DNA from: a virus | Length of the DNA: 64,000 nucleotides | IMG/VR virus record: IMGVR_UViG_3300020185_000014 | Location: 52,070-116,069 of that record | Direction: 5' to 3' (one strand) | Part shown: one piece after another, positions 46,560-61,142 of the stretch | Position numbering within the stretch: the stretch's first letter is position 1 | Layout: each line of letters begins with the position of its first letter | Program-made: the position numbers and the translations under genes | The notes under the pieces: model-generated | The model's input: the letters and a program-made list of their open reading frames with translations, nothing else | Told to the model about the DNA's origin: nothing | Databases searched by the model: none

Positions 46560-46721
46560 TTATTTGACCTGTCTTTTTTTCTTCCCGTTAATTTCAATGA
46601 AGTTTCGAGTCAGAATTTTATATTTCTTTTTCTTCTTCGGTTCCATATTCTTAGTGTCCTGAGGAATACCAGCGTCGCCGGTCGTCATCATTTCTTCACC
46701 AAATTGTTTAAATGTTTTCAT
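46560..46721 (-). CDS. Small basic protein with capsid-targeting-like N-terminus
   Basis: 53 residues, MKTFKQFGEEMMTTGDAGIP then KKKKKYKILTRNF. The first ten residues resemble the T4 internal-protein targeting peptide (MKTYQEF-type). The gene fits exactly between the spanin candidate and the Smr-like gene. If processed like T4 internal proteins, a basic peptide of about 40 residues would remain in the head. This is inference. Confidence 0.55.
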   Translation of the reverse strand: MKTFKQFGEEMMTTGDAGIPQDTKNMEPKKKKKYKILTRNFIEINGKKKRQVK

Positions 46722-46724
46722 TTT

Positions 46725-46937
46725 CTATACCTTATGTACTAGCACATATCCTTCGAAAAACGAATCAACCCTATCGCACTTTATTCTTGCTGCAGTAGAC
46801 ATAACCAATTGAGACATTCGACTGCTTTTTCCGGTTACGATTCTCAACGGAACATCGTTCTGGTTGAGGAGTATAAAGTTTTCAACTAATCGTTCAACTT
46901 CTTCATGAACGACTCCGTGTAAATCAAGTTCTTTCAT
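46725..46937 (-). CDS. Smr-like domain protein
   Basis: 70 residues. MKELDLHGVVHEEVERLVEN followed by FILLNQN and PLRIVTGKSSRM has the LDLHG and TGKSSRM blocks of the Smr (small MutS-related) domain. Free-standing Smr proteins bind or nick branched DNA or cleave RNA. The domain is about 10 residues shorter than usual. It overlaps the upstream gene by 4 bases. Confidence 0.7.
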   Translation of the reverse strand: MKELDLHGVVHEEVERLVENFILLNQNDVPLRIVTGKSSRMSQLVMSTAARIKCDRVDSFFEGYVLVHKV

Positions 46938-47521
46938 CTATAAATTTCGCCGAGAGCAATATGTATCTTCTTTCCGCTGTTTAAATGAAATGCCTCGTAT
47001 ATATCTATACCTGATAAGTTTGCAACAGGAAATGATTCGTTCTTGACTCTGATCCTATCTTTTGGTTTTACGATATCGTCGAGGGTTTCTGACAAAACTT
47101 TTTCATTTTTAATTCGGTAAATCCCAGGCGATAATTGTTTATCTTCGAGGAGAAACCACTCAGATGCTTCTTGCAGCAAGTCGAGCACGTCGAACCCAGA
47201 CTCATAGATGATCTTGTTGATATTCTTCTCTGAAATACTGTACGTTTCTTTAAGGAGATACAACGCAGAAACGTAGGATGCAATCTTTGAAGAACCTCCA
47301 GGCGCTTTCGCGATAAGTTTTTTAATGTTGAACACTAATTTATGAAACGCGGTGTAGGATGATTTTTCAGAAGAAGATTCTATCTTTTTGCTCTTAATTC
47401 GTTTTCCTGCGTCGTCGATAATACCTAATTTGAATGCGTCGGTATCTTCAAAATTTGTAACAAGAAGTTTTAGAAACCTGAAGGTATATACTAAATCTCC
47501 TGCTCTCGTAAGTAATGACAT
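46934..47521 (-). CDS. Conserved T4-like protein of unknown function
   Basis: 195 residues. SLLTRAGDLVYTFRFLKLLV and FEDTDAFKLGIID are strongly conserved in marine T4-like phages as I remember them, followed by a helical middle (AFHKLVFNIKKLIAKAPGGS) and a C-terminal strand-rich piece. No function is known to me. Position next to head or structural genes suggests a virion or assembly role. Confidence 0.6.
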   Translation of the reverse strand: MSLLTRAGDLVYTFRFLKLLVTNFEDTDAFKLGIIDDAGKRIKSKKIESSSEKSSYTAFHKLVFNIKKLIAKAPGGSSKIASYVSALYLLKETYSISEKNINKIIYESGFDVLDLLQEASEWFLLEDKQLSPGIYRIKNEKVLSETLDDIVKPKDRIRVKNESFPVANLSGIDIYEAFHLNSGKKIHIALGEIYR

Positions 47522-47534
47522 TATTAAACTCGCT

Positions 47535-49973
47535 TTAATTTGGTATGTTAAATCTATTTTGGTATGCTACCCAGTTATTGGTTATTTCTGCGGCGGATAA
47601 TGCCCTGTCGTAAACAGCAAATAGTCCGTAGTCATGATCTCCGGTATTTGACGGAGCATCTCGCGTCGCTCCGCGCGAATTCAACTTCGGCCATGATGTT
47701 TCATCTTTTAGCACCGACCCGTTTCCGAATTCTGCTATGTTCTCGTCAATTAATTGACCATTCCTATACATCTTCACAGTATGACCATCAAACGTTAATG
47801 TGGTATAGTACCATGTGTCTGTGGATATCGCAACTCCGACTGCCGGATCGGGTCTCCAATGCCATCCTAAGTTGACCGCGTCCCTTATCGCCCATTGCAA
47901 ATTATTATCATTTGTGCGCATTTCCCATATATATTCTTTGTTAAAAAGAATATCTTCTGGTGGCGAGTTACTCTGTTTCCTAAACACCACTTCCACCGTA
48001 ATAAAGTTGATGTCGTTAAATTGATGATAAGATGTTGCCCAATCATCAACCCCTAAATGCCAATAACTTTGCAGGTGATTGGGTTGTTCGATATGAACCG
48101 GAGTACCAAAAAACTCAAAGTCTCTGCCAGAACTATAAGAGGAATTTTCTGATATATTGATCCAGTTACGCACAGTCACCCCGTCCGGATCTATCATATC
48201 TGTACTTGCGGGCAGACCAGCATCAAGAAGCACAACTAGATCATCAATTCCTTGCGGTTTACCCTCGAGGGTTGATGTGTTATACCAGAACCCATTATGG
48301 TAACTTTCGTTATAACCCAAATCCGTATTATATCTAGTGAATCCGTTCGCGGGTAAAATTGGTCTTTCTGCTGTCGTCCCGCCTTGACCTTCTACACTAG
48401 TGTCCGTAATTGAGAACGTTGAATAGGTTTCTACGGCACCGTCTCTTAAAACGTTGACGCGATAGTTCTTAGTTCCTTCTGTTGTTACGTCTACTGCCGG
48501 TCTGAACGTGAACGATCCAGTCTTTAAGAAGAATGATCCCGACAATTCGAAACTCCCGCTCGCGGGTGCAATATCCGTTGCGGTAACTCCGTTATACAAT
48601 ACCTCGTAATCGAGTTCAGATTCTTCAATGTTTCTTGACTCGACGTCAATTGTAATCTCGGTGCCTTCGTCGTAGAACCCAAGGTCAGCACCGCCGCCGA
48701 TCGAGATATTCAATTCGGAAAACGCTGCACCGCCTTGCGAGAAGCACGAGACTCCTATTTGACTCGACCCCATGAATTTATTTAAAACTCCACCGAAAGC
48801 AGAAGTTGATACGTCGACTGTTAATCCGCCTTTCAGCACTTCGGAATTAGGATCAGTGGAGTATGCTGTTATAACGTCCCCCGAACGTTCGACTCGGATC
48901 GTTGTTCCTCGCGGGAGAAAAGTGTTCCAGTTGCTAGCGCCAACATAAGGAATCGCCGCACTACCGTTCGCGATTATTTGTCCGTCGCCCTGCAGGTAAT
49001 TATAAGTGACCGCCCATGCATCGGTTTGGTGGTCCACCGCTTGATCTTGATTTCTAATTGCGGATAACGTGTATTCTCTACCGGCAGCGCCATACAACCC
49101 TGCCGTGTCTTTATAGAACGCTATGACAATTCCAAGACGATCGTTATCGGCATCTGCGGATGTTATCTTAGACTGGATTACATAATCCTGATACTCATCA
49201 TTACTAACGAATCCAATATAGCTGCCGGAATTTAATGTTGAAGCAATGCTGCCGGTCTCTTCAGTATACGACCACGCAGTTAATTCTGAAGCAATGGCGG
49301 GGTAGGCGGTGCTCCCTGAATGAGAAAACCTTAACCACGTGTCAAATATAGTTGATTGACCAATAGTAAACGCATTTGTGATTCTGGTTACTCGTGGCAA
49401 ATTTCGTATGATCACGTCATCGCTAACCGTAGGCAACCCGATAGAAGTAGTTAGTGACTGGTCTATGGTCATTGTAATAGTAGTGTCCGCCTCTATATTG
49501 TTAACTGCGAATGATTTGTGTTGCGTCGCGTTTAGCATATTGAACGATCCGATGAGCGGCCGGTTGACCTGATTTGGTTGGACCCCGCTCAGCGTATAAA
49601 AAATTTCTTTATAATTCGGAGGAAAAGCAGAACTGGTCAAAGAAAATGTAAACGCATCAAGTTCTTGAGCGGAATCAATATTGGATGTTAACGAAAGCGC
49701 CGGAAGTCCATCAGTACCATATGGGTTAATGCCTTGCCCCATTTCCCTATCGAACGTGTGGAAATTATTTGAAAATCGTTGGACGTTGAGGAACCCGTCT
49801 TCAGAAAAAAGCGGACCGTGTCCAGGGTTATCGTCGACGGAGTCGATAGATTCGAATCCGCCCATATATGATAGGACTGATGAATAGTAATGATCTAATT
49901 CAGCAATGGTTAAATCGCTATCGGGAACGTCTCTCAATTCGTTTCTAAGATCATTCCAAACGAGTTTTCTCAT
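47535..49973 (-). CDS. Virion protein with C-terminal concanavalin/LamG-like lectin domain
   Basis: 812 residues. The N-terminal 120 residues are phage-specific (LVWNDLRNELRDVPDSDLTI), the centre is beta-rich with repeat-like units near residues 440-540, and about residues 600-812 form a LamG/concanavalin-like domain: YWHLGVDDW, TLTFDGHTVKMYRNGQLID, LFAVYDRALSAAEITNNW. Such domains bind glycans. It overlaps the next gene by 4 bases. It may be a second receptor-binding or head-decoration protein; its N-terminal DDNPGHGP piece recalls marine fibre proteins. Confidence 0.65.
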   Translation of the reverse strand: MRKLVWNDLRNELRDVPDSDLTIAELDHYYSSVLSYMGGFESIDSVDDNPGHGPLFSEDGFLNVQRFSNNFHTFDREMGQGINPYGTDGLPALSLTSNIDSAQELDAFTFSLTSSAFPPNYKEIFYTLSGVQPNQVNRPLIGSFNMLNATQHKSFAVNNIEADTTITMTIDQSLTTSIGLPTVSDDVIIRNLPRVTRITNAFTIGQSTIFDTWLRFSHSGSTAYPAIASELTAWSYTEETGSIASTLNSGSYIGFVSNDEYQDYVIQSKITSADADNDRLGIVIAFYKDTAGLYGAAGREYTLSAIRNQDQAVDHQTDAWAVTYNYLQGDGQIIANGSAAIPYVGASNWNTFLPRGTTIRVERSGDVITAYSTDPNSEVLKGGLTVDVSTSAFGGVLNKFMGSSQIGVSCFSQGGAAFSELNISIGGGADLGFYDEGTEITIDVESRNIEESELDYEVLYNGVTATDIAPASGSFELSGSFFLKTGSFTFRPAVDVTTEGTKNYRVNVLRDGAVETYSTFSITDTSVEGQGGTTAERPILPANGFTRYNTDLGYNESYHNGFWYNTSTLEGKPQGIDDLVVLLDAGLPASTDMIDPDGVTVRNWINISENSSYSSGRDFEFFGTPVHIEQPNHLQSYWHLGVDDWATSYHQFNDINFITVEVVFRKQSNSPPEDILFNKEYIWEMRTNDNNLQWAIRDAVNLGWHWRPDPAVGVAISTDTWYYTTLTFDGHTVKMYRNGQLIDENIAEFGNGSVLKDETSWPKLNSRGATRDAPSNTGDHDYGLFAVYDRALSAAEITNNWVAYQNRFNIPN

Positions 49974-50338
49974 ATCGATCTCAGTCTCTCAACAATGATC
50001 GGGTCGAGTCCGATCTCAGAATAATTTATTGTCGGTAATACATTAAGGAAAATATAGAATGGTCTTAAAACGCGCTGGTGTTTTTCTTCCATCTTATACT
50101 CCATCATCTTCAATCCTGCGGGAACCCCGAATACATTAAATATTACAATCAAGTGATTAAGTATCAATCGCTCCGATAAAACTTTATTTTCAATGTATCG
50201 ATTCAGTAATCGTTTTACATATTTGAACCGTTTAAGGTCTTCATGAAACTCATCGGCATCGATGCACGCGGGACTATAGTAGTGCCGTGCCGCGAACAGT
50301 GCAAATGTTTCTTCGTTAAGTGTTTCAAATAATTTCAT
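49970..50338 (-). CDS. Conserved T4-like cyanophage-type protein
   Basis: 122 residues. FALFAARHYYSPACIDADEF, EDLKRFKYVKRLLNRY and RLILNHLIVIFNVFG form a helical protein that I recognise from marine T4-like phages (possibly DUF7207). Function unknown. The N-terminus (MKLFETLNEE) weakly resembles the F-x-x-[LF]-x-x-E start of the internal-protein candidates nearby. Confidence 0.6.
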   Translation of the reverse strand: MKLFETLNEETFALFAARHYYSPACIDADEFHEDLKRFKYVKRLLNRYIENKVLSERLILNHLIVIFNVFGVPAGLKMMEYKMEEKHQRVLRPFYIFLNVLPTINYSEIGLDPIIVERLRSI

Positions 50339-50416
50339 TCATAGTAACTCATCTCTGTTACTATTATATATTCGTTCTGTGTCATGACATGACAGGCATG
50401 CACGACAAATACGTTA

Positions 50417-50710
50417 CTATTTCTTAGAGATCCAGGCAGAAACGCCCATGTAAGCGCCAACAACACCTGCTTGCGCGATATAGAATAGTCCTAGAACATC
50501 CGCCAAAGCGTTTATTCGACTGTCTTGAAATATTGGTAAAAATAACGCAAGAGTGAAAACGATCATAGACCACATTGAGATCCATGCCATATTTCTTTGC
50601 GTATCTGCTTTCTCTTCTCGAATTTCTAACTCGAGTATTTCTTCTTTAACTTTCAGTTCACTTTCCGTAATAACGCCATCACTATCTAAATCGACAGTGG
50701 AATTCGACAT
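50417..50710 (-). CDS. Two-span membrane protein with EF-hand-like loop
   Basis: 97 residues from the ATG at 50708-50710. VDLDSDGVITESEL near the N-terminus is a near-canonical EF-hand calcium loop (D-x-D-x-D-G). A charged helix follows, then two hydrophobic segments (MWSMIVFTLALFLPIF and LGLFYIAQAGVVGAYMGV). The start overlaps the upstream stop (TAATG). Role unknown; a holin-like topology is possible. Confidence 0.6.
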   Translation of the reverse strand: MSNSTVDLDSDGVITESELKVKEEILELEIREEKADTQRNMAWISMWSMIVFTLALFLPIFQDSRINALADVLGLFYIAQAGVVGAYMGVSAWISKK

Positions 50711-50961
50711 TAGTTCTCTCCTGAGATTTTCCCCCAAAAGTGCTTGATCGTATCAGCACTTAGAAGACGTTGCTTTGGTCCTGGTGCTTCGGTTAACACC
50801 TGAGGTTGAGCAATTGGTTCTTGTGTATATCGTTCTCTATAGAATTCTTCAATATGCTCTGGTAACATTCTTTGTTTCTTAAGCATTTCACCAGACGGCG
50901 AAACCCAACCATTAGGGGTCGGGGTCGCGTCTTCACACCAATGTGGAGGTTTAATCGACAT
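50710..50961 (-). CDS. Hypothetical protein, zinc-free conserved start
   Basis: 83 residues. KPPHWCEDATPTPNGWVSPSGEML then KKQRMLPEHIEEFY. The PHWCEDAxPTxxGW stretch is common in short phage proteins that precede head genes. The rest is helical. It overlaps the membrane-protein gene and follows the acidic head-protein gene by 2 bases. Function unknown. Confidence 0.5.
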   Translation of the reverse strand: MSIKPPHWCEDATPTPNGWVSPSGEMLKKQRMLPEHIEEFYRERYTQEPIAQPQVLTEAPGPKQRLLSADTIKHFWGKISGEN

Positions 50962-50963
50962 GG

Positions 50964-51956
50964 TTATACCTTTGTGGTATCTTTAGGTGTTTCGGGTTTG
51001 AGGTCGCCTTTACGAATATCGCCAGGGCGAGCGGGTGCTTGTTTAGTTGCACGCCCTGCCTTTGTTGCATCGTCATGACCTTTCTCTTCAAAGTCTTCAA
51101 TATCTTTATCGGACTTGGCGTGATCCGCCGCAAATTTCTTAGAGGAGGCAGGTTCTTTATCCATGATACCTTCGGGTTTCGTTGCACCTTTCTTGTGAGA
51201 TTTATCTTCCCACATATTCTTCATTGATGCGATCGCGCGTTGCTGTAGTGCAGAGTAAGTTTCTTCAATCTCTGCTTCTAATTCAGCAACCGTACCTTCT
51301 TGAACTTTTGATTTAGCGTCACGTGCTTTCTGAAGTTTTTCTTGATCGTTTCTTGTACGCGCGCGAGTTCTAATCTGCGCTTCATCCACTTCATCTTCTT
51401 CGTTTGCTTTCTTCAACGCTTTCTGTACACGAGGATTATCGCTCATGCCTTTCTTTTGCTTGTCAATTTTCTTAACAGCACCGGTCATATCGCCGCTCAT
51501 GTTCTTGGCGGTTTTGATAGCAGATGATACACCTTCGAGTTGATCCGCCGGAACATTAAACTCTACGCCATGTTCGAACAGAACGTCGACGCCGTCAGAT
51601 GACTCGGACATAATCTCGCCATAACCCCATTGTTCGTGACGAACAGATTCACATGATGATTTCTTTTTCTCAGAAGATTCGAATCTTGAACATTCATCAT
51701 CGTGGTTTTCTGTAGAACCACCGCACTCACTGCATTTATTCATTCCGCTCTTACTCATCTTAATCTCATTTTCGCTTTCTTGTTTGATCGCGCGTTTAAC
51801 AGATTTGCGTCGATTGTGCAAGTATTCATCGGAGGAGTCTACATCTCCGTCGTTGTCGATGTCCGCATCTGCCTTACCGACAGGGTCCATCTTCTTTTTC
51901 TTTTCTGAAACCTGACCCCATAAATCTTTAAATCTATTCAAATCTTCAGTATTCAT
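50964..51956 (-). CDS. Charged internal-head/scaffold-type protein with dockerin-like calcium loop
   Basis: 330 residues, very rich in Lys, Glu, Asp and Ser. DPVGKADADIDNDGDVDSSD is a dockerin/EF-hand-like repeat common in internal proteins of T4-like marine phages; then EYLHNRRKSVKRAI. A Cys cluster (CSECGG...CSRF) near residue 75 may bind zinc. The rest is disordered with E/K repeats. A role as an internal or core head protein is inferred from composition and neighbours. Confidence 0.6.
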   Translation of the reverse strand: MNTEDLNRFKDLWGQVSEKKKKMDPVGKADADIDNDGDVDSSDEYLHNRRKSVKRAIKQESENEIKMSKSGMNKCSECGGSTENHDDECSRFESSEKKKSSCESVRHEQWGYGEIMSESSDGVDVLFEHGVEFNVPADQLEGVSSAIKTAKNMSGDMTGAVKKIDKQKKGMSDNPRVQKALKKANEEDEVDEAQIRTRARTRNDQEKLQKARDAKSKVQEGTVAELEAEIEETYSALQQRAIASMKNMWEDKSHKKGATKPEGIMDKEPASSKKFAADHAKSDKDIEDFEEKGHDDATKAGRATKQAPARPGDIRKGDLKPETPKDTTKV

Positions 51957-51967
51957 TACTATCTCCG

Positions 51968-52258
51968 TTATAGGATACCATTAAAATGACTAACAACCAT
52001 CGAAACCACACCACCAATAGTCAACCAAGTGATTTTCTGTAACGAAGTTAATGTTACCAGCATCGCGGTTGTTTTCGTATCAATGACGTCAATTTTTTCT
52101 GACAATTTATTTACTCTCTCATGAGATTCTTTTCTACGAATCTCAAGTTCATTAATTTTTTCTTCTACTCTCGCCAACTGTATTACCACGTCGGACAATC
52201 TATCTATTTTTTCTTCGATACGATCTAATCGATCGTCTTGTTCCGTACCACGTTCCAT
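51968..52258 (-). CDS. Coiled-coil protein with C-terminal membrane segment
   Basis: 96 residues. Heptad-patterned helix (RLDRIEEKIDRLSDVVIQLA and on to residue 65) then one hydrophobic span (TWLTIGGVVSMVVSHF). Similar XhlA-like coiled-coil membrane proteins occur in phage lysis or entry modules. A TATAAATA lies about 90 bases upstream. Function unknown. Confidence 0.55.
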   Translation of the reverse strand: MERGTEQDDRLDRIEEKIDRLSDVVIQLARVEEKINELEIRRKESHERVNKLSEKIDVIDTKTTAMLVTLTSLQKITWLTIGGVVSMVVSHFNGIL

Positions 52259-52346
52259 ACTGTGCTCTCCGGTATGATTTTATATTAAGAAGTCGTGCAA
52301 CAATTCAAAAAGCAATGACGTTAAAATAAAATAGAACACTCGAGGT

Positions 52347-52354
52347 TATTTATA
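52347..52354 (-). promoter_or_regulatory. T4-type late promoter element
   Basis: Exact TATAAATA on the minus strand in the 100-base gap upstream of the coiled-coil gene starting at 52258. Confidence 0.55.
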
Positions 52355-52358
52355 AAAT

Positions 52359-52706
52359 TTAATTATCTACCTTGGACCCCGCTCTCCATTGATAGCAACT
52401 CCAATACTTAGCTTTCCATTTAGGACCTGGATTATCACAACCGTGCCTTGCGCGAAAAGACTTGCGGCGCGCTGGATCGTCCCGTTTAATTTCCATATTG
52501 GGATCTCCGAAGTTAACCTTAACGACATTACCCTTTTCGTTCTTAACGTATACAGAAAACTTCTTAGGACCACCAGAGGTCCTGAACGGATTGTTGAGAG
52601 ACACTTTCTTGCCCTGATACTCTGATTCAACGATCTCTAATTCTTCGTATAAACTTTCGCAAACACAATCAATATGATCTGCTCGGTGCGTATTGAATTT
52701 CTTCAT
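52359..52706 (-). CDS. Conserved head-associated protein (KKFSVYVKN...RHGCDNPGPK type)
   Basis: 115 residues. GGPKKFSVYVKNEKGNVVKV, then NFGDPNMEIKRDDPARRKSF and RARHGCDNPGPKWKAKYWSC form a module found at the C-termini of head-region proteins in many large phages; here it is free-standing. Two Cys and one His may bind metal. Function unknown. It abuts the DUF1353 gene. Confidence 0.62.
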   Translation of the reverse strand: MKKFNTHRADHIDCVCESLYEELEIVESEYQGKKVSLNNPFRTSGGPKKFSVYVKNEKGNVVKVNFGDPNMEIKRDDPARRKSFRARHGCDNPGPKWKAKYWSCYQWRAGSKVDN

Positions 52707-52708
52707 GA

Positions 52709-53278
52709 CTATTCTCTACTCCTATGTCCGTTCCAGGCGACGAACCCCGCAAGGCGCAGCGCCCAATATGCAAGGTAGTTTAACACTTTAAATCCGTTCA
52801 CTTCAATACAGATATCACGAAACAATTCATCCGCTGCTTTCTGATCTAAGAGTTGGGTTTGACCTTCTTTCGTTGCGGGTTTCAGCGACGCATACTTGTA
52901 AGCATAGTCGTGAACTAAACCGCCCATCAACAAAACACCGACTGGTGATAGAAATGTCGCGAGAAACTTTGGAACAGACGCCCCGTCGAATTGAAATCCT
53001 GCAGGAACAACGTAGAATTTACCGCCCAATGAATAGTGCCAGTCTTCGACGATTTCCCATTGACGAGTACCGAGCAACCACATCCATACACCCTTGAAGA
53101 AACCTTTATCTTTGGTTTCAATAGGCAGGGGTGACATTTTAGGCATGCTAGCATATTTGAAATCTACACGACTTTCGCCTTGCCCATCGAAATAACTGAC
53201 TACGAAACCAACTAAAACGAGTACAGCAAGAATTGTCCATTGCCAAAACGTTGTTGCTAATTCTAAAAACATTTCCAT
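52709..53278 (-). CDS. DUF1353 protein with N-terminal membrane anchor
   Basis: 189 residues. One hydrophobic segment (WQWTILAVLVLVGFVVSYF) and a DUF1353 domain: VVPAGFQFDGASVPKFLATF and GGLVHDYAYKYA. This family is frequent in tailed phages; no activity is established. The HDYAY pair and Asp are invariant in the family. It starts 1 base after the basic head-protein gene ends. Confidence 0.8.
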   Translation of the reverse strand: MEMFLELATTFWQWTILAVLVLVGFVVSYFDGQGESRVDFKYASMPKMSPLPIETKDKGFFKGVWMWLLGTRQWEIVEDWHYSLGGKFYVVPAGFQFDGASVPKFLATFLSPVGVLLMGGLVHDYAYKYASLKPATKEGQTQLLDQKAADELFRDICIEVNGFKVLNYLAYWALRLAGFVAWNGHRSRE

Positions 53279-53279
53279 T

Positions 53280-54566
53280 TTACTTTCCTAGACTTCTATG
53301 CGCTGCTGCTGCTTGTTTAACTGCGGCGGGACCGCCTTTCGCTAATCTGATTTTGAGTTGACGCTTACCCATTACAGGTAATTTGTCGTACAACTTCAGA
53401 GCGTGATGAGCATCATCAGCACTAACTTTACCAGTTTTGCCCTTATGGAATACCGGTGTGTGTATACCTTTAGTATCAACAACCTTTCGAAGTTGGACGA
53501 TTGGATGTAGGTCTGCCTTATCGTCATATGTAGTTTTTGGTTTAGACTTAACAGGTTTCGGCGCTGCTGCTTTCTTAGGGTTCGCTGCAGCGTCCTTCTT
53601 CTTCTGTTGACGTTTAACAGAAGACCTTCCGTCGGCGTCTCTCGCTGACGCTTTCTTATCTCTAATGCGAGCAATCTCTTCTCTTTCTTTATCGGTCAAC
53701 TCTGACACAACAGATTCTTTCGGTACACAGTTCGGAACAGTCTTACCGTTCTTTTTCTTAGTCCCGACCATTTCGTAATCGTCCCAGCAAGGATCGCTCT
53801 TCTCTGTCTTTGCATTTGTTTGGTGCGATTTTCTTTGTTGTTTTATTCGCGCAAATGATTTTTCGCGATCATACTCTGCTTCCGCTTCTTTGTACTTTGC
53901 TGAACTACCTTTACCACCAATAGGTGTCGGTGGTTTTCTGTATACTTCATCAACAGATTCTTTTTCTAATGCTTTCTTAACAATTTTTCCTGCTGCAGTC
54001 TTAACGCCTTGAGCGCGTTTAGGATTTTTCCAAGACTTATCTGCAAAACTCTGTAGAGTCTTAGTGCTCAGTTCAGCAACCGGTTCTTCAGAGACATTCT
54101 TACCTCTACCATGCTTGACGAGGTATGAACCAGATGTGTCTTTATGAACAACGCCATTATGTGTCTTGGCGTGACTGTATGCAGTATTCTTATCGAATTT
54201 ACCTGCATTGCCCTTGTCCCGACCCTTCTCGCCTTTACCGCCTATGTAACCTTCTTGTTTAATAATTTCTTTGTCTGTCTTAACCATGCGAACCCTTCGC
54301 TTCCCTTTTTCATCTGTATACATTTCGGGTTTTTTATCTGCGGAGGTTACTTTTTCTTCTGCCCTTTTGATACCTTTGGCTCGGTTATCTGCTTTTCGTT
54401 GATGAACTTTACCCATGTGGTCTGTCCAATCGCTTTTCGAAGAATCTGCCGATCCGGTTCTTGTCTTGTAATCCTTAGCGATTCTTTGATGAGAATCCTT
54501 AGAATCTTTCGCTTTGTCCAGATATTTTTTCTTCATTTCCGGAGAAAGTTCGTTAACCTTATTCAT
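53280..54566 (-). CDS. Highly basic internal head protein candidate
   Basis: 428 residues with extreme Lys/Arg content and little predicted order. DPCWDDYEMVGTKKKNGKTV then PNCVPKE is a motif common in internal or head proteins of T4-like phages, and HAKTHNGVVHKDTSGSYLVK, SVVSELTDKEREEIA are further recurrent elements. It probably helps package or condense DNA. It overlaps the nucleotidyltransferase gene by 4 bases (ATGA). Confidence 0.58.
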   Translation of the reverse strand: MNKVNELSPEMKKKYLDKAKDSKDSHQRIAKDYKTRTGSADSSKSDWTDHMGKVHQRKADNRAKGIKRAEEKVTSADKKPEMYTDEKGKRRVRMVKTDKEIIKQEGYIGGKGEKGRDKGNAGKFDKNTAYSHAKTHNGVVHKDTSGSYLVKHGRGKNVSEEPVAELSTKTLQSFADKSWKNPKRAQGVKTAAGKIVKKALEKESVDEVYRKPPTPIGGKGSSAKYKEAEAEYDREKSFARIKQQRKSHQTNAKTEKSDPCWDDYEMVGTKKKNGKTVPNCVPKESVVSELTDKEREEIARIRDKKASARDADGRSSVKRQQKKKDAAANPKKAAAPKPVKSKPKTTYDDKADLHPIVQLRKVVDTKGIHTPVFHKGKTGKVSADDAHHALKLYDKLPVMGKRQLKIRLAKGGPAAVKQAAAAHRSLGK

Positions 54567-55732
54567 ACCAGATCCTTGTTGCCTTTATGTTTCGAATAAC
54601 CTTTTTTGGTTGATTTCTTTTTATCAGTATGCACTGCTGCTTTGTTAAACTTACTAGCATATTTTGCGACAGGATTACTACTTCCTTCTGGTACAGTTCT
54701 CCTGTTAACTTCCCTTGCTCGTTTCAAGCGAGCGATATCCAAAAGTTTATCGTGCTTTGATTTATCTGCTTGTTTTTCTTTAGATATTTTCTTCTTCGCG
54801 ATCTCGACAGCATCTTCTTCTACTTCAACTGACTCTCCAGGGGTCATAGATTTTGCTTTACGAGTTGCTTCAGGCGTGCCCCATTCCGGAGCATTGCCCA
54901 TCGTTCCTTCTTTTACAACAGAATCAATCCATTGACGCGATATGTTGCCTTCGTCTAATCCTATGATGACGTAGTTAGTGCCGAGTCGCTGAATGTGACC
55001 TGATTGTTTTGATTTTGTAATTATAACTCTATCGCCGACTTCAAACAAATCGCCTTGAACAAACTTCTCTCGGATTTCTGAGACTGGGTTAAACTCGCAC
55101 CGTGTTTTAAATTCGGTCGCTTCTTTCAAACCCATGCCAACACGAACAGCGTTAAATAAAGATTTTGCATCTTTATTAGACATGCTTCTCGGTACGCCCT
55201 GCGAAAACTTCACGAAATCGTTAGTCTTTGCATGCGCGCGTTGTTTGCTTGCCGAGATACCGGAAACGTCGTCAGCGTCCGGATCTCTTTCGCCAGCAGA
55301 GACAACTGTGATCTTTTCGAAGTTGTAGAAACCGTGCCGCGCTTTTGTGCCGTTGTATTTGTTTAACAGAGTTTGAAACTCGGTAACTCGATCTGACCCG
55401 ACTACCATCGTGACTTTTCGATACCCTTGGTCGTAGAGGTTGACCGCAGCATCAAAAACGTTTTTAACTTTCTTATTTGATAAGATGTTCCTACCGTGTT
55501 TCGGGAACATCTTTCGGGAGAGTTTAACTTTCTCAATATAGGGGATCGGATTGCTTTTCGGATCTTGCGATTGAGATAAGAATATTTTGTATGGATTTTT
55601 CTGAGACTTTCTAGAAATAGTATCTAAGAGTTTTTCGTGTCCGGTGGTGGGAGGATTCATTCTACCAAAAGTGAAAAAGATTTCTCTATCTTCTTCGACG
55701 AGAAATTGTTTAAATGACGAAATAGAATTCAT
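54563..55732 (-). CDS. Cytidylyl/NMN-adenylyltransferase-like protein with head-targeting-like start
   Basis: 389 residues. It begins MNSISSFKQFLVEE, resembling the T4 capsid-targeting peptide. FTFGRMNPPTTGHEKLLD is the start of a nucleotidyltransferase (NMNAT/cytidylyltransferase) with TTGH where HxGH is usual; VVGSDR and ISASKQR correspond to the family's second and third blocks. A basic C-terminal third (EIAKKKISKEKQADKSKHDK) follows. It might modify NAD, CTP or lipid metabolism if delivered into the cell. Substrate is unknown. Confidence 0.7.
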   Translation of the reverse strand: MNSISSFKQFLVEEDREIFFTFGRMNPPTTGHEKLLDTISRKSQKNPYKIFLSQSQDPKSNPIPYIEKVKLSRKMFPKHGRNILSNKKVKNVFDAAVNLYDQGYRKVTMVVGSDRVTEFQTLLNKYNGTKARHGFYNFEKITVVSAGERDPDADDVSGISASKQRAHAKTNDFVKFSQGVPRSMSNKDAKSLFNAVRVGMGLKEATEFKTRCEFNPVSEIREKFVQGDLFEVGDRVIITKSKQSGHIQRLGTNYVIIGLDEGNISRQWIDSVVKEGTMGNAPEWGTPEATRKAKSMTPGESVEVEEDAVEIAKKKISKEKQADKSKHDKLLDIARLKRAREVNRRTVPEGSSNPVAKYASKFNKAAVHTDKKKSTKKGYSKHKGNKDLV

Positions 55733-55747
55733 TGTACCGTATCCCTT

Positions 55748-56209
55748 TTACTTAGAAGAAGATCTTCTTTCTTTATCTAGTTTTCTAATTGACGGGAGGT
55801 TTCGTACAGCGATTCGGTCGATACGACCTTTCATTTTCTCGAGTCGTTTTTCGATTTCTTGCCGGCGAGCAGGTGGAACTTCAGCGCGAGACTTGCCTTT
55901 CGACAGTTTCTTGAAGACCTGATTCATCGCATGTTTTCTTGCACGCTTCTTGAGGCGAGGAAGGTCCGCCGCTTTTTTAGATTGACGTTTTCGTCCAACC
56001 TTGAGGCGGGTTTTCATTTTACGCATCTGACGACCACGCGCGCGCCTTTGAGAGAAAGTTAGCGCTTCTAATTCTACTTCCGCTTCTTCCGCAGGACCGC
56101 CAGTACCATTCGTCTTGCGGCGCTTCTGTACGCGATAATTAGTCAATTCATCTTCGCCTGGTCGATACTCGACCGTCGTGAAGTTTTTGAAACTCATTGG
56201 TTTCGGCAT
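55748..56209 (-). CDS. Arg/Lys-rich head-region protein
   Basis: 153 residues. FSQRRARGRQMRKMKTRLKV, RKHAMNQVFKKLSKGKSRAE and PPARRQEIEKRLEKM are blocks of a basic helical family found in T4-like marine phages. It begins MPKPMSFKNFTTVEY, a possible variant of the targeting-like start. GGAAAG lies before the ATG. DNA contact inside the head is inferred. Confidence 0.62.
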   Translation of the reverse strand: MPKPMSFKNFTTVEYRPGEDELTNYRVQKRRKTNGTGGPAEEAEVELEALTFSQRRARGRQMRKMKTRLKVGRKRQSKKAADLPRLKKRARKHAMNQVFKKLSKGKSRAEVPPARRQEIEKRLEKMKGRIDRIAVRNLPSIRKLDKERRSSSK

Positions 56210-56237
56210 TTCGCTTTCCTTTGGTTCAATCCATTTA

Positions 56238-57467
56238 TTAACTTCTGGAAGGTGTATCCCAACCTTTCAGAATATTGGGGGAAAAGTTGTTGTATGAAAA
56301 TTCCATTCTGTCAACAATCTTTACCGCGTCACCACCAAGTTGATCAATAGCGACGAAACCTTCTGCTCCCGTCACTTTAAACCCTCTTTTAGTTTTTACA
56401 AAAGTATCAATATCTTGCAATCTATTCAAGTTATTTATAAGTTTTAATTTCGTTAACACAATCAATTTCTGTAGTTTAAATATTCGCTCTAAGTCTGCCT
56501 TGTTAGCGACGCTAAAGAACGCAAGCAGGTCGTCGAGTTTCTTTTGTTGTGTTGACTTACCCGCATCAGTTTTTCTTTTATCTATTTCTTTCTGATATTT
56601 TTCTTGTATAAATGCAATACAGTTAGCAACTAATTTCTTCTCGTTTTGCGTATGCATGGAAATGCCTTTCCTTACAAGAGAGTTGCTGAATGTCTCGATA
56701 TGTTGAGCCAGCATTTGATTCTGTTCTAGTTGCCTTAGTGCTCCGCCTGATATCTTATTGAATAGAACACCGATTTCAGTCAGCATTTTGTTGACGTCTT
56801 TTGTTTCTTGAGCGGACATAGTTGCTTTTGTTACATCCCGCAACATAGCATCTTGAGACCAGACGGAAGAAACTTTCTTGAGCGCCTTAACGTTAACGCC
56901 ATATGATGCGCGCATAGATTCAAACGTTTTCCCTTTATAGGTTGTGTGCCAAACAATGCCGATCTTCGCTTTGATGACTTCTTGCGCTTGATCATATGGC
57001 ACGGCATAGACGATTGTGTTCGGGTGGAAAGTTACATACCTCTGCCCGTCGATCCGTTTTACCGTTTTATCGCCTGTGCCGAATAGGAAGTCACCCTGTA
57101 TCACATCTTTGATACCGAGTTTACTTAGATGCTTGAGCGCTTCCTTTAGTTTCGCGTTTAGGTCGCCCGAAGTATCTTCATCAATATCAGCATCAGTCTT
57201 ATAGACCTTGGGGTTCTTATTGAAGATACCTTTCTTGGCGACGAAAAATTTACCATCTCTCGGATCGGTTCCTGCAAATACTGCCGGTGCCCCGTCCCAC
57301 TTGACAGACACCTTACCTTCTTTTTTCCCTGCGAGCATATCGCGCAGGTCTCTAAGGGCAAAGATCGCTTGCCTAGTACCATTAACACCGCCATAGAGAA
57401 CCTTATCCTCTATGTGCGTCATATGGGTGTTTTTTTGCTCTGTGATAAAATTTTTAAAATTTTCCAT
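56238..57467 (-). CDS. DUF6267-like protein with KxDG nucleotidyltransferase motif
   Basis: 409 residues. It begins MENFKNFITEQ, a targeting-like start. VSVKWDGAPAVFAGTDPRDG holds Lys56-Trp-Asp-Gly, the motif-I lysine of ATP-dependent ligase/capping-enzyme folds, and FFVAKKGIFNKNPKVY, VIQGDFLFG follow in the order of motifs III-IV. The C-terminal 200 residues are helical. It is not a standard DNA ligase. An RNA/DNA-repair or adenylating activity inside the head or on entry is speculation. Confidence 0.65.
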   Translation of the reverse strand: MENFKNFITEQKNTHMTHIEDKVLYGGVNGTRQAIFALRDLRDMLAGKKEGKVSVKWDGAPAVFAGTDPRDGKFFVAKKGIFNKNPKVYKTDADIDEDTSGDLNAKLKEALKHLSKLGIKDVIQGDFLFGTGDKTVKRIDGQRYVTFHPNTIVYAVPYDQAQEVIKAKIGIVWHTTYKGKTFESMRASYGVNVKALKKVSSVWSQDAMLRDVTKATMSAQETKDVNKMLTEIGVLFNKISGGALRQLEQNQMLAQHIETFSNSLVRKGISMHTQNEKKLVANCIAFIQEKYQKEIDKRKTDAGKSTQQKKLDDLLAFFSVANKADLERIFKLQKLIVLTKLKLINNLNRLQDIDTFVKTKRGFKVTGAEGFVAIDQLGGDAVKIVDRMEFSYNNFSPNILKGWDTPSRS

Positions 57468-58246
57468 TATACATTATCTATTAAAATAATATCAAAGATT
57501 GCACCAGCGCCGCATGTATTGCCGGACTGCGCCCGAATCTCGATATCTGTTTTTTCTGTAAACCGCAGAGGCACTGTATATTCGTATTCAAACGGAATGC
57601 CGAATGTCCCGAACTGCCCTTTAACGTTGAACGCTCCATTGAATGGTTTCGCCATTAACTTGTATTTGACATCAGTAGATTTATCGACGCTGCATTGCAG
57701 TTTGGTTAGATAACCTGTTTTGCCAGCGGGAACAGTATAGATCGCCATCAATGTTTGCCCGTTGTCGGCGAGTATTTTTGCTGCAACGATACTATCCACA
57801 GTTATTGTGATATCATGTTCGTTAGTATCGGCACCGGTTGGTGGGACAATAACCGACGCTCTGAAGACCCTAATGAACTGAGCAATACTCGACGAACCGA
57901 CTGCTACCGCTTCAACGATTAGGTTGTAGTTCTCGTCGAGACCCTGAATGCTAATAACTGCCCCAGGAGCGTCGCCCGTGACTGCTGCAACGGTGGCGTT
58001 GGTTGGATACGCATATAAGTTAGACCCGTCCCAAATACTTTCGAAACCATTATTGCCGAGGTTTACATTGAACCCAAATTTGTTTATTGCAGAATACCCT
58101 TCAACCAAACCTGCTGCGAGGTTTATATTAACTAGAGACCCGCCGTTGTTAATTATATTGCCGTCTTTATCTGCCGTCATAACAACTTCATAAAGATGAC
58201 GGTTGTTAAGCATTAGTTGTTCTTTATTTTTATCAAATTGTGCCAT
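57467..58246 (-). CDS. Conserved marine phage virion protein
   Basis: 259 residues. GYSAINKFGFNVNLGNNGFES, FIRVFRASVIVPPTG, and GQTLMAIYTVPAGKTGYLTK are blocks of a beta-rich protein that I recognise from many marine T4-like phages as a structural protein, probably a capsid or head decoration protein. It overlaps the DUF6267 gene start by 1 base and is probably made in large amounts. Function is not established. Confidence 0.65.
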   Translation of the reverse strand: MAQFDKNKEQLMLNNRHLYEVVMTADKDGNIINNGGSLVNINLAAGLVEGYSAINKFGFNVNLGNNGFESIWDGSNLYAYPTNATVAAVTGDAPGAVISIQGLDENYNLIVEAVAVGSSSIAQFIRVFRASVIVPPTGADTNEHDITITVDSIVAAKILADNGQTLMAIYTVPAGKTGYLTKLQCSVDKSTDVKYKLMAKPFNGAFNVKGQFGTFGIPFEYEYTVPLRFTEKTDIEIRAQSGNTCGAGAIFDIILIDNV

Positions 58247-58258
58247 TTTATTATTCTC

Positions 58259-59041
58259 TTATTTGTTGATCGCGAAAGAATACCGCACGATATCTTCAAC
58301 CGTTTTCTCGAACTGATCAAGTTTTATTGTGTTAGGTCCATCGCTCGGCGCGTTATCTGGGTCGTGATGCACTTCCAAAAAGAAGTTTTCTATTCCGAGC
58401 GCACTGCCGCTTCTCGCTAAACCAGAAACATAATCCCTGTTGCCCCCAGAAGCAGATCCTAGTCCTCCTGGTTTTTGTACAGAATGTGTTACGTCAAATA
58501 CAATCGGGTTGTGATAATTTTCCATCATATACTGCATCCCAGTAAAATCAACAACAAGACTGTTATACCCAAAACAGGTTCCTCTCTCTGTTATCCAAAC
58601 ATCTTTGGCGCCAACAGTTTTACTTAGGATGTTCTTAACATCCCATGGGGCGAGGAACTGTCCCTTCTTGATATTAACCACCTTCCCCGTTTGACATGCT
58701 GCTACAACAAGGTCAGTTTGCCTACACAGGAATGCAGGTATTTGCAAAACATCAACTACATCGCCGAACCAATTTGAAATTCTATCAATTTGTTCAACAG
58801 TATGAACGTCTGTTAGAATGTCGACGTTCTGTAAAAATTTGATCATCTTAAGATCCGCCAGCGTCGAATCTAAACCAACTCCGCGTTCACTGTCAGCGCT
58901 CGATCGGTTTGCTTTATCATAACTGGATTTGAAGATATACTCTACGCCATGTAAATCACACACGCGTTTACACTCTTTAGCGATTTCTAGACTCTGGGTG
59001 TATGTTTCATGTTGGCATGGTCCGGCGATTATTCTCATCAA
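58259..59041 (-). CDS. kdsA: 3-deoxy-D-manno-octulosonate-8-phosphate synthase (KdsA)
   Basis: 260 residues (E. coli KdsA 284). AGPCQHE, FKSSYDKANRSS, ILTDVHTVEQ, VDVLQIPAFLCRQTDLVVA, VNIKKGQFLAP, ERGTCFGYNSLVVDFTGM, FDVTHSVQKPGG and EVHHDPDNAPSDGPN are all present, so the active site appears complete. It condenses PEP with arabinose-5-phosphate to make KDO-8-P, the precursor of the LPS inner core. It overlaps the upstream nuclease-fold candidate by 4 bases (ATGA). Phage-encoded KdsA has been reported in some marine T4-like phages. Confidence 0.92.
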   Translation of the reverse strand: MMRIIAGPCQHETYTQSLEIAKECKRVCDLHGVEYIFKSSYDKANRSSADSERGVGLDSTLADLKMIKFLQNVDILTDVHTVEQIDRISNWFGDVVDVLQIPAFLCRQTDLVVAACQTGKVVNIKKGQFLAPWDVKNILSKTVGAKDVWITERGTCFGYNSLVVDFTGMQYMMENYHNPIVFDVTHSVQKPGGLGSASGGNRDYVSGLARSGSALGIENFFLEVHHDPDNAPSDGPNTIKLDQFEKTVEDIVRYSFAINK

Positions 59042-60030
59042 TTTATTCTCTCGAGTAATATTCTTAAATATTTTGGCCCTTTATCAACTGACGTTGTGCC
59101 CCTGAATTGAAAGTGCACCTTGTAGTTTTTTCTGTTGATCTTAGCATTAAATTTGATGTTTGCGTATTTACGCACCCCTGCTTCGGGATAAACGTATGAA
59201 TCGGTAGATAACCCTGATATAGAAACATCGTTTTTTCTACCAACCTTCTTAACTAAAACATCATCTTCTTTCTTTTTATGTATTATGACGACCTGCTCTC
59301 CTAATGCTTGAGAGAGCACGTCAGTCAAGTTCGCGGAGACCCTTGTGTAGTTTGGTTTTTTTGTCTTACACTGATACTCTTTACCGAACCCGCCCATCAT
59401 GACACCGTCGAACCCAAAGAACTCATTCATCCGGACCTGTAACCTCTTGTCAAGAAAATACTTAAAGATTGAGGCAGACAACGTATAATAACTCTGCGAC
59501 ATCTTAAGAGAAAGGTACATCTTTTTGTTTTGTTTTTTCAGGGTCAAATCAGTCAGTGTCACACCAGTTGAGTTACTGATCAAAACCTTTCTGCCATCAA
59601 ACCTAAGCTCTCTCTTCTGATTCTTGGATCCTTCTGGTATTACTTCCCATGGATCGCTCGGGTCAATCTTAAGCACACGGCACATCTCATTGATCGTGTC
59701 AGAATGCCTAATCTCATTATCTTGCGCGCCGTTGAAAAAGTTTACTAGATCGTTCTCTAATTCTTTTTCAAACTTAACACCGCCTGCTCCTTTCTGAATA
59801 ATTGGTTTGAATATAACGTCACCAATATTAGTGACAGAAAGGACATCAAGTGAACCGGACTTCGACTTCTTGAAGACTGACTCAAACTGAATCTTTTCTT
59901 TCTTAAATAGTTTCTCAACCGATGTCTTCGTTTTAATCCTGTCCCGCGACTTGACGATGAAATCGTTTCTCTTTTTAGTTATGCTCGCTGAAGCGTCTGC
60001 TTTCTTGAGAAGCGATTCCAAGGAAGCCAT
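59038..60030 (-). CDS. Putative PD-(D/E)XK-fold protein
   Basis: 330 residues. Basic N-terminal 60 residues, then GGVKFEKELENDLVNFF (helix with Glu), VTLTDLTLKKQNKKMYLSLK with Asp161 and the S-L-K ending at Lys176, in the E...D...xLK order of restriction-endonuclease folds. KDVSISGLSTDSYVYP-like and LRILLER strands follow. Overlaps the next gene by 1 base. I do not recognise the family; the nuclease call is inference. Confidence 0.5.
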   Translation of the reverse strand: MASLESLLKKADASASITKKRNDFIVKSRDRIKTKTSVEKLFKKEKIQFESVFKKSKSGSLDVLSVTNIGDVIFKPIIQKGAGGVKFEKELENDLVNFFNGAQDNEIRHSDTINEMCRVLKIDPSDPWEVIPEGSKNQKRELRFDGRKVLISNSTGVTLTDLTLKKQNKKMYLSLKMSQSYYTLSASIFKYFLDKRLQVRMNEFFGFDGVMMGGFGKEYQCKTKKPNYTRVSANLTDVLSQALGEQVVIIHKKKEDDVLVKKVGRKNDVSISGLSTDSYVYPEAGVRKYANIKFNAKINRKNYKVHFQFRGTTSVDKGPKYLRILLERIN

Positions 60031-61109
60031 CAGAACTTCACTTGTTTCTTGACAGCAATATCAGGAACCAATCCCATAAAAGAAATCACAGAGCGCACGC
60101 CTTGTTTAAACAACGCTGAAACTTTAGACCATGCTGAAGAAACTGTGTTCTTGATTTTTCGGGCGATCTTCGCAAGGTTTACTTCTGAAATAATTTCTAG
60201 ATCACCATATTCGGTTGATTCGTCCATGGCATCAACGATTAACGAAATCACCGACCAGAAGTTATACTCCCCAGTCTTAACGCCCTTCAGTTTCCTTGAA
60301 GATGTCTTAAACCGTGCTTGTAATCGCATCTTGTCAGCGATACGCTCGCAGTATCCATCATCCTCAACGCTGTGTACCTGAATGCTCTTCCCGTCATGAG
60401 TTGAGACCAGCATAAACTCCGCAGCAGAATTACTATCTTTTCCGTATTTTTGGTATCCGGACATCGCTTCGCGCGCGAATGCGATCTTAAAGTCTCGGTT
60501 GTTTTCGAACAATGTTCCGAGTTCTTGCATCGCCTCTTTATGCGCTTTCTCGCCTTTGTTGACGATTTCGTTTTCGCCTGATTTGATCAGAGGTCTCAAT
60601 TGAGAAGGCGCTAGAGTATTCGTGACGAACCCTTCGATAATATCTCGGGTCTTAATGAACTGGGGATCTTTAACCAATTTTGCGGAAGATGTATTAACCG
60701 CAGAATAGAAAGTTGCAGTTGATTCTGCCTTACCGCCAGACATCAATTGCGCTAATCCAATCTTCAAAGAGATTCTCATATCGCCGATTAAGATATCTGT
60801 TTTTGGTGTGGTATCACTACCACCGTGGGATTTCCAAAACGGAGTCAGCGAGCTTTTCGCTCTGCCGTACTGTTCTGCTTTTTTGCCTTTCAGTTTGGGG
60901 TAATTTTTAAGGAGGAAGGAAGCGACGCGCTTGCCGGTTTCCATAGCAACTGGGTTCGCTTGTATAACTTTAAAGACGCTATCGCTAATGCCCATTTCGG
61001 ACGGGTTTGCTTTTTTGTTTTGAACTTCATAAAACCCAATGACGATTGCTGCTTCATAATCTTCTGCTTTCAGTTTACCTTCAGACAGAAATGATTTAAA
61101 TGTATCCAT
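60030..61109 (-). CDS. Putative nuclease-fold internal protein with targeting-like start
   Basis: 359 residues. It begins MDTFKSFLSEG, resembling the T4 head-targeting peptide with its F-x-x-F-L-x-E. TPKTDILIGDMRISLKIG carries Asp105 and the S-L-K ending at Lys116 (restriction-endonuclease-fold order), then QLMSGGKAESTATFY. Other parts are helical, and a basic hydrophobic C-terminus (VRSVISFMGLVPDIAVKK) closes it. It is paired with the adjacent nuclease-fold candidate. A late promoter lies 26 bases upstream. Function unknown. Confidence 0.5.
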   Translation of the reverse strand: MDTFKSFLSEGKLKAEDYEAAIVIGFYEVQNKKANPSEMGISDSVFKVIQANPVAMETGKRVASFLLKNYPKLKGKKAEQYGRAKSSLTPFWKSHGGSDTTPKTDILIGDMRISLKIGLAQLMSGGKAESTATFYSAVNTSSAKLVKDPQFIKTRDIIEGFVTNTLAPSQLRPLIKSGENEIVNKGEKAHKEAMQELGTLFENNRDFKIAFAREAMSGYQKYGKDSNSAAEFMLVSTHDGKSIQVHSVEDDGYCERIADKMRLQARFKTSSRKLKGVKTGEYNFWSVISLIVDAMDESTEYGDLEIISEVNLAKIARKIKNTVSSAWSKVSALFKQGVRSVISFMGLVPDIAVKKQVKF

Positions 61110-61134: not shown

Positions 61135-61142
61135 TATTTATA
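61135..61142 (-). promoter_or_regulatory. T4-type late promoter element
   Basis: Exact TATAAATA on the minus strand, 26 bases before the start at 61109. It would drive the nuclease-like pair, KdsA and the head genes downstream. Confidence 0.6.

Follow-up and report, generated by a model that had tools for sequence, protein, structure and literature searches.

A T4-type capsid-targeting-like leader on unrelated proteins of an uncultured T4-like phage and its relatives

Leader-bearing proteins of the window

Why would phage proteins without detectable similarity to each other start with the same short peptide? The question is raised by a 64,000-nt stretch (the window; positions 52,070–116,069) of the 116-kb IMG/VR virus record IMGVR_UViG_3300020185_000014, from a T4-like phage. 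Among named phages, the closest relative found is Phage C48C1 (Kyanoviridae); next come Methylophilales phage Melnitz, Pelagibacter phage HTVC008M and cyanophages. Megablast of the region against phage records gave no match. A first-pass annotation had pointed to four unrelated late proteins with an F-x-x-F-(x)-x-E leader, likened to the N-terminus of T4 internal proteins (IPs). All four open reading frames (ORFs) are present, on the minus strand, and their families indeed lack detectable mutual similarity. The leader is a real protein-level pattern common to such families, and very probably represents a T4-type capsid-targeting sequence, cut by gp21, on swappable enzyme cargo.

The full pattern, M-x(1-5)-F-x-x-F-[IL]-x-E, is present on three carriers (scores are from the leader matrix described below): a putative PD-(D/E)XK (MspI/HinP1I-like) nuclease (359 aa; 60,030–61,109, minus strand; leader MDTFKSFLSE, 61,080–61,109, score 17.8, cut predicted after E10); a DUF6267 protein with a KxDG motif, KWDGAP (409 aa; 56,238–57,467, minus strand; leader MENFKNFITE, 57,438–57,467, score 21.8); and a cytidyltransferase/NMNAT-like nucleotidyltransferase with a C-terminal DUF7230 (389 aa; 54,563–55,732, minus strand; leader MNSISSFKQFLVEE, 55,691–55,732, score 18.6 although outside the training set, cut predicted after LVE). 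The fourth, a 53-aa basic peptide (46,560–46,721, minus strand; leader MKTFKQFGEE, 46,692–46,721, score 9.4), is the weakest case of the four named ORFs, with no I/L two residues before the Glu (F-G-E-E), so that the proposed common leader holds in full for three proteins and in part for this one. All four share F-x-x-F, which occupies residues 7 and 10 in the cytidyltransferase and residues 4 and 7 in the other three.

A fifth carrier, overlooked at first pass, is a 153-aa basic protein (55,748–56,209, minus strand) with a degenerate leader (MPKPMSFKNFTTVE, 56,168–56,209, score 5.9); the basic protein at the equivalent place in C48C1 starts MLSFKQFVSE (score 12.5). Across the five, the leader F stands at residue 4 in three carriers and at residue 7 in two. 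The L/I-x-E cleavage site is present in the nuclease (LSE), DUF6267 (ITE) and cytidyltransferase (LVE) leaders, and absent from those of the 53-aa peptide and the 153-aa protein (TTVE). A 115-aa protein (52,359–52,706, minus strand) starts MKKFNTHRADH and has no leader, while homologues are tagged in C48C1 (MKKFKQYIDEG) and at locus L143 (MKRFSQFISES).

Enrichment of the leader at N-termini

Matches to F..F.{1,3}E within the first 24 residues were found in 5/122 called genes of the record, against an expectation of 0.58 based on internal 24-mers (p=3e-4), for a motif picked after four of its five instances had been seen, and enrichment within this genome alone is modest; independent tests were made because the motif had been chosen in this way. 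Simple relaxed regular expressions gave weak enrichment and numerous false matches, so a 7-column matrix was used instead, with two families for training and others for testing. Of the 109 training leaders, from 160 IMG/VR loci for the DUF6267 and nuclease families, 79 have F at residue 4 and 21 at residue 3; a loose regular expression finds the pattern in 101/106 distinct DUF6267 and 40/45 nuclease-family N-termini. When trained on DUF6267 leaders, the matrix recovers 30/45 nuclease-family and 60/83 cytidyltransferase N-termini, and when trained on the nuclease family, 76/106 DUF6267 and 60/83 cytidyltransferase N-termini (67–72% recovery), against an internal-Met background of 15/6535 (0.23%). 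Cytidyltransferase leaders score >=9 in 66/85 distinct relatives. In ten phage genomes with the training families excluded, an N-terminal score >=10 is reached by 21/1972 called genes, where 2.75 would be expected (p=8e-8; 9/6451 internal Met windows reach this score), extending the pattern to relatives.

In the nuclease-family alignment E10 is invariant and L8 (23/26), F4 (18/25) and F/Y7 (20/24) are conserved, the rest of the leader being variable. More generally, the Glu, the I/L two residues before it and the two aromatics are conserved across alignments, with wide variation in the residues between. Codons for F, I/L and E vary synonymously across 255 distinct leaders; the constraint therefore acts on the peptide, and an artefact of translation starts is ruled out.

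Clustering of 2128 genes from the IMG/VR loci showed the leader to be concentrated in a few families without detectable mutual similarity, including the nuclease, DUF6267, cytidyltransferase, basic peptides, DUF5824, HAD phosphatase, two families without a Pfam match and others, while 70 clusters (614 distinct N-termini) have no leader at all. Examples of the further families in relatives (HAD phosphatase, DUF5824 peptide and the two without a Pfam match) are at L026:6330-6947, L094:9384-10004, L032:2801-3052, L028:380-1693 and L061:804-1796. Some HAD phosphatases carry the leader (MKGFREYIKEA-YIPSLNVFDIDDTLF) and others lack it (MGLTVFDIDDTLF); the tag, gained or lost among otherwise similar proteins, behaves as a module.

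Match to the T4 capsid-targeting sequence and its protease

In T4 IPIII the first 10 residues suffice for targeting, with residues 4 and 7 needed for targeting and 8 and 10 for processing, and gp21 cuts after L/I-x-E (PMC9026906). Three of the four named leaders have all of the T4 sequence features tested and the 53-aa peptide lacks one. The matrix trained on marine sequences, which had never seen T4, ranked IPIII 2nd and IPII 3rd of 259 called T4 genes; the top-ranked gene is 61.1 (MKTFKEFIKE), annotated as a hypothetical protein. A gp21-type prohead protease (Peptidase_S77, E=1.1e-43) is encoded in the same genome, outside the window (G000:C1:17861-18529, with the profile match at 18032-18469), and a matching half-motif lies in the expected cut region of the major capsid protein in this phage (MLVE|AP), C48C1 (FLTE|TG), DSL-LC02 (FISE|AG), S-CREM2 (LLTE|AP) and T4 (FLTE|AE). 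The likeness to T4 IP leaders proposed from the window is thus borne out by the residue pattern, by the protease and by the blind recovery of IPIII and IPII.

The C-terminus of gp21 itself carries F-x-x-[FY]-[LIM] (REFKNFLSLL, KAFERFISGL, SAFETFLKSL and others) here and in all seven non-T4 relatives listed (L012-L018), a motif found within the last 15 residues of just 1–3 called genes per genome. This motif looks like the leader and could have the same core as its binding partner.

From the sequence match we infer a scheme in which tagged proteins would be synthesised late and, before DNA packaging, be docked on the prohead core by the aromatic pair F-x-x-[F/Y]. The S77 (gp21-type) protease would then cut after [I/L]-x-E, releasing the mature protein within the head, where it would be retained during DNA packaging and, by analogy with T4, enter the next host along with the DNA. 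The tag would act as an address label on its cargo (nuclease, ligase-like KxDG protein, NMNAT/cytidyltransferase, basic peptides), and probably marks enzymes that are delivered to the host together with the DNA.

Leaders and virion proteomes of relatives

For S-CREM2, 52 virion proteins are reported with coordinates (PMC10665884). All four (4/4) of its non-lysis virion enzymes carry the leader, compared with 1/61 undetected genes (Fisher p=7e-6), as counted with annotated starts in two genome regions of this one phage that were chosen as holding detected enzymes. An equal share of leaders among non-virion genes, named beforehand as the outcome that would speak against the proposal, was therefore not seen. 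Among detected proteins of these regions outside the known head and tail genes the leader is present in 5/13 (p=4e-4). Tagged virion proteins are ORF6 (S-adenosylmethionine (SAM) hydrolase, MKDFDSFLEE), ORF12 (‘Cas9’, ...LRFASFMAEA), ORF14 (kinase, VKRFDAFLTEE), ORF154 (cytidyltransferase, MKNFSSFLTEA) and ORF13. ORF12 (L232:7704-10313), although annotated as Cas9, matched nothing in Pfam at E<=0.05 or in NCBIfam at E<=0.01. PMC10665884 also cites a report of a kinase in virions of S-CRM01, where the homologue starts MISFDQFLSE.

The cytidyltransferase homologue has been reported in virions of S-SM1 (PMC3037559), S-SZBM1 (PMC9146016) and S-CREM2 (PMC10665884), with leaders MKKFSAFLNEA, MRFRQFIIEA and MKNFSSFLTEA, respectively. 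Leaderless family members are found alongside a lack of virion detection: the S-PM2 cytidyltransferase, stated to be undetected in the virion (PMC3037559), is part of a leaderless DUF6267-cytidyltransferase fusion; that of PA5oct is leaderless and without the mass spectrometry (MS) note borne by its neighbours; and DUF6267 of S-SZBM1 is leaderless and missing from the MS table, in which a leader-bearing neighbour is listed. A test of the S-CBWM1 cytidyltransferase found no match, and the S-CREM2 DUF6267 protein, whose start was not readable from its locus, is not part of this evidence.

Several points weigh against capsid targeting. Support for packaging comes from relatives of this uncultured phage, and the S-CREM2 comparison has the narrow base given above. 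In S-CREM2, the leader of ORF12 begins 17 residues in, ORFs 17, 155, 156, 160, 165, 174 and 176 are in the virion yet leaderless, ORF175 has a leader and was not detected, and incomplete CsCl separation was considered possible by the authors (PMC10665884). Two small tagged S-SZBM1 proteins (165 and 105 aa) have no length match in its 30-protein MS table. Leaders of HTVC008M are degraded, T4 IPI ranks just 16th of 259 genes with the marine-trained matrix, and the residue after the leader Glu is often E, Q or D, compared with A in the T4 IPs shown. Leaderless virion proteins and undetected tagged ones suggest that the tag is one route among others and that detection is incomplete.

Competing explanations

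The leader could target proteins to the prohead with the carriers serving as head assembly or maturation helpers (core or scaffold) instead of injected effectors. T4 provides a precedent in its core proteins gp22, gp67 and gp68, which are cleaved and for the most part removed, and in IPIII, which influences head shape; IPI, IPII, IPIII and Alt, however, stay in the mature head, and ejection has been reported for many of them (PMC9026906). Several carriers are also small and basic, as are T4 IPs, but others belong to clear enzyme families (S-AdoMet lyase, E=2e-19; HAD-type phosphatase; cytidyltransferase), and the tagged S-CREM2 enzymes were found in mature virions, making a role limited to assembly unlikely.

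A different signal, such as an amphipathic segment that binds membrane or tail, a degron or a feature of the translation start, would fit a leader that is short, N-terminal and amphipathic, and N-termini are generally of unusual composition. Such a signal appears improbable, however, given the protein-level constraint seen in synonymous codon use, the conservation of the Glu and preceding I/L above all other nuclease-family leader residues, as for a gp21 site, the selection of T4 IPIII and IPII among 259 genes and the association of the tag with virion detection. N-terminal scores >=10 are moreover found mostly on proteins of unknown function and on no recognised replication gene. Chance combined with shared ancestry, i.e. 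ordinary N-termini that contain F and E, would account for a motif that was first spotted by eye and whose single-genome enrichment is modest, but is rejected by the cross-family tests, the held-out enrichment, the T4 positive control and the MS association, and we give it almost no weight.

Capsid targeting followed by cleavage on swappable cargo is thus the preferred explanation. More tentatively, and with considerable doubt, marine T4-like phages may share a capsid-import code, F-x-x-[FY]-[IL]-x-E, that has moved among many unrelated enzymes (nuclease, ligase-like, NAD-related, SAM-degrading, kinase), these being host-specific cargo injected before phage gene expression. The same code might also be used by the assembly machinery, in the gp21 C-terminus (F-x-x-[FY]-[LIM]) and in a gene 61.1 product mimicking, near the cut site, the capsid-protein N-arm of its own phage.

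Likely nature of the proposed cargo enzymes

The AlphaFold2 model of the nuclease-fold protein (pLDDT 73.7) is disordered at residues 1–10. Its best Foldseek matches in the PDB are MspI (E=3.5e-3, probability 0.99) and HinP1I (E=2.1e-2), with modest TM-scores and none at E<=0.001, and a sequence profile search against the PDB found no nuclease match. D105 and S114-x-K116 are invariant in the family alignment. The protein is therefore a putative PD-(D/E)XK nuclease nearest to MspI/HinP1I, a model-based assignment with weak E-values.

The DUF6267 protein (Pfam PF19782, E=4e-100) has K56, D58, G59, E369, G370, V372 and K383 invariant across its family. Foldseek with its AlphaFold2 model (pLDDT 84.5, leader disordered) gave weak matches only (E about 1), ligases and a capping enzyme among them, and a sequence profile search against the PDB found no ligase match. 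The later motifs (EG-h-V, K) are taken as those of the nucleotidyltransferase (ligase) superfamily; as KxDG and these motifs are typical of covalent nucleotidyltransferases, a nucleotidyltransferase/ligase fold is probable. In both models the ordered domain begins after the predicted cut.

The cytidyltransferase matches phrog_395 (E=4e-68), PF23876 (E=1e-11) and, below its cut-off, PF01467 (CTP_transf_like, E=0.004), and has the nucleotidyltransferase start GRMNPPTTGH. From these matches we infer the enzyme activities of the cargo. DUF6267 and cytidyltransferase form a single fused protein in S-PM2 (L010) and likewise in the phrog_455 profile, suggesting joint action.

Gene context and the 61.1-like peptide

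The region from 54.6 to 61.1 kb is a co-directional, tightly packed gene run. A T4-type late promoter-like sequence, TATAAATA (61,135–61,142, minus strand), is located 33 bp upstream of the nuclease start and heads the run down to the cytidyltransferase; sites of the TATAAATA type number 9 in the window, compared with 4.2 expected by chance. The description of the carriers as late proteins is upheld in part, by this promoter. A KDO-8-phosphate synthase gene (58,259–59,041, minus strand; NCBIfam E=4e-101), encoding a lipopolysaccharide precursor enzyme unexpected in a phage, lies within the block. A second IMG/VR contig, IMGVR_UViG_3300027413_000341 (L099:669-1745), encodes a nuclease and a DUF6267 protein 100% identical to those here.

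The 53-aa peptide lies downstream of a 61.2-like gene (46,934–47,521), with one gene in between for a 70-aa Smr-like protein (46,725–46,937, minus strand; Pfam E=0.002, below cut-off). Its residues 1–18 match phrog_1823 (E=0.005), and by synteny it is likely to be the equivalent of T4 gene 61.1.

In some other phages the small protein at the 61.1 position resembles the major capsid protein of its own phage, in the N-arm at the gp21 cut site and beyond it (in T4, FGSFLTEAEIGGDHGYNATNIAAGQTSGAVTQIGP / FKEFIKEDMVAGDSGGNPENISIGTTSGAVVNKGP). Such arm mimics were identified in T4 (AF158101, 18,966–19,130), S-CREM2 (ORF160, which is listed in the virion MS table), syn9 (L009:14455-14979) and DSL-LC02 (L011:12527-12745), with own-phage similarity of 56.8 versus 29.1 across phages (permutation p=4e-5). 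Mimicry of the gp23 arm does not hold for the 53-aa peptide, with a score of 16 that falls within shuffles, and was not seen in C48C1 or S-PM2 either.

Significance and comparison with known systems

In the sea, T4-like phages are some of the most abundant viruses. A tag readable at the N-terminus hints at which virion enzymes are likely to be cargo, predicts new cargo from sequence alone, T4 gp61.1 included, and gives a direct test of cleavage in existing raw MS data. It also points to proteins that would be delivered at the first moment of infection, e.g. the putative nuclease and the SAM-degrading enzyme, which may act on host DNA or restriction, and the leaders provide a ready set of capsid-loading tags. 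For cyanophage virion enzymes, at least one group was unable to tell packaging from lysate carry-over (PMC10665884).

The class of signal is already known, and its use on enzymes of marine phages appears to be undescribed. Titles and abstracts of the capsid-targeting literature found concern T4, P1, SPN3US and T4-based tools, and a literature search on capsid targeting in cyanophages and T4-like phages, with subscription journals mostly outside its reach, did not turn up any account of these tags on enzymes of marine phages.

The closest known system is that of T4 IPII and IPIII (MKTYQEFIAE), which share with the leaders described here an N-terminal position, a length of ~10 residues, aromatics at 4 and 7, I/L at position 8 and E at position 10, as well as a genome-encoded gp21 protease and several small basic carriers. 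Here, in contrast, the first aromatic is usually F instead of Y, E/Q/D often follows the Glu, most carriers are enzymes without similarity to IPs, and in relatives the tag is exchanged between many families. T4 Alt, an injected ADP-ribosyltransferase, is alike in working, as a gp21-cut enzyme that is carried in the head and injected, but the enzyme activities predicted here differ, and no relation in sequence was seen, with no test aimed at one. Inner-body and ejection proteins of phiKZ and SPN3US are likewise cargo, processed by a gp21-related protease that cleaves behind a short motif with E as its last residue (PMC9026906), in a different phage lineage compared here by literature descriptions only. 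The virion enzymes identified by MS in cyanophages S-CREM2, S-SZBM1, S-SM1 and S-CRM01 are direct relatives, with the same cytidyltransferase family and leader; the papers that reported them (PMC10665884, PMC9146016, PMC3037559) give the proteins and no packaging signal, and a candidate for that signal is added here.

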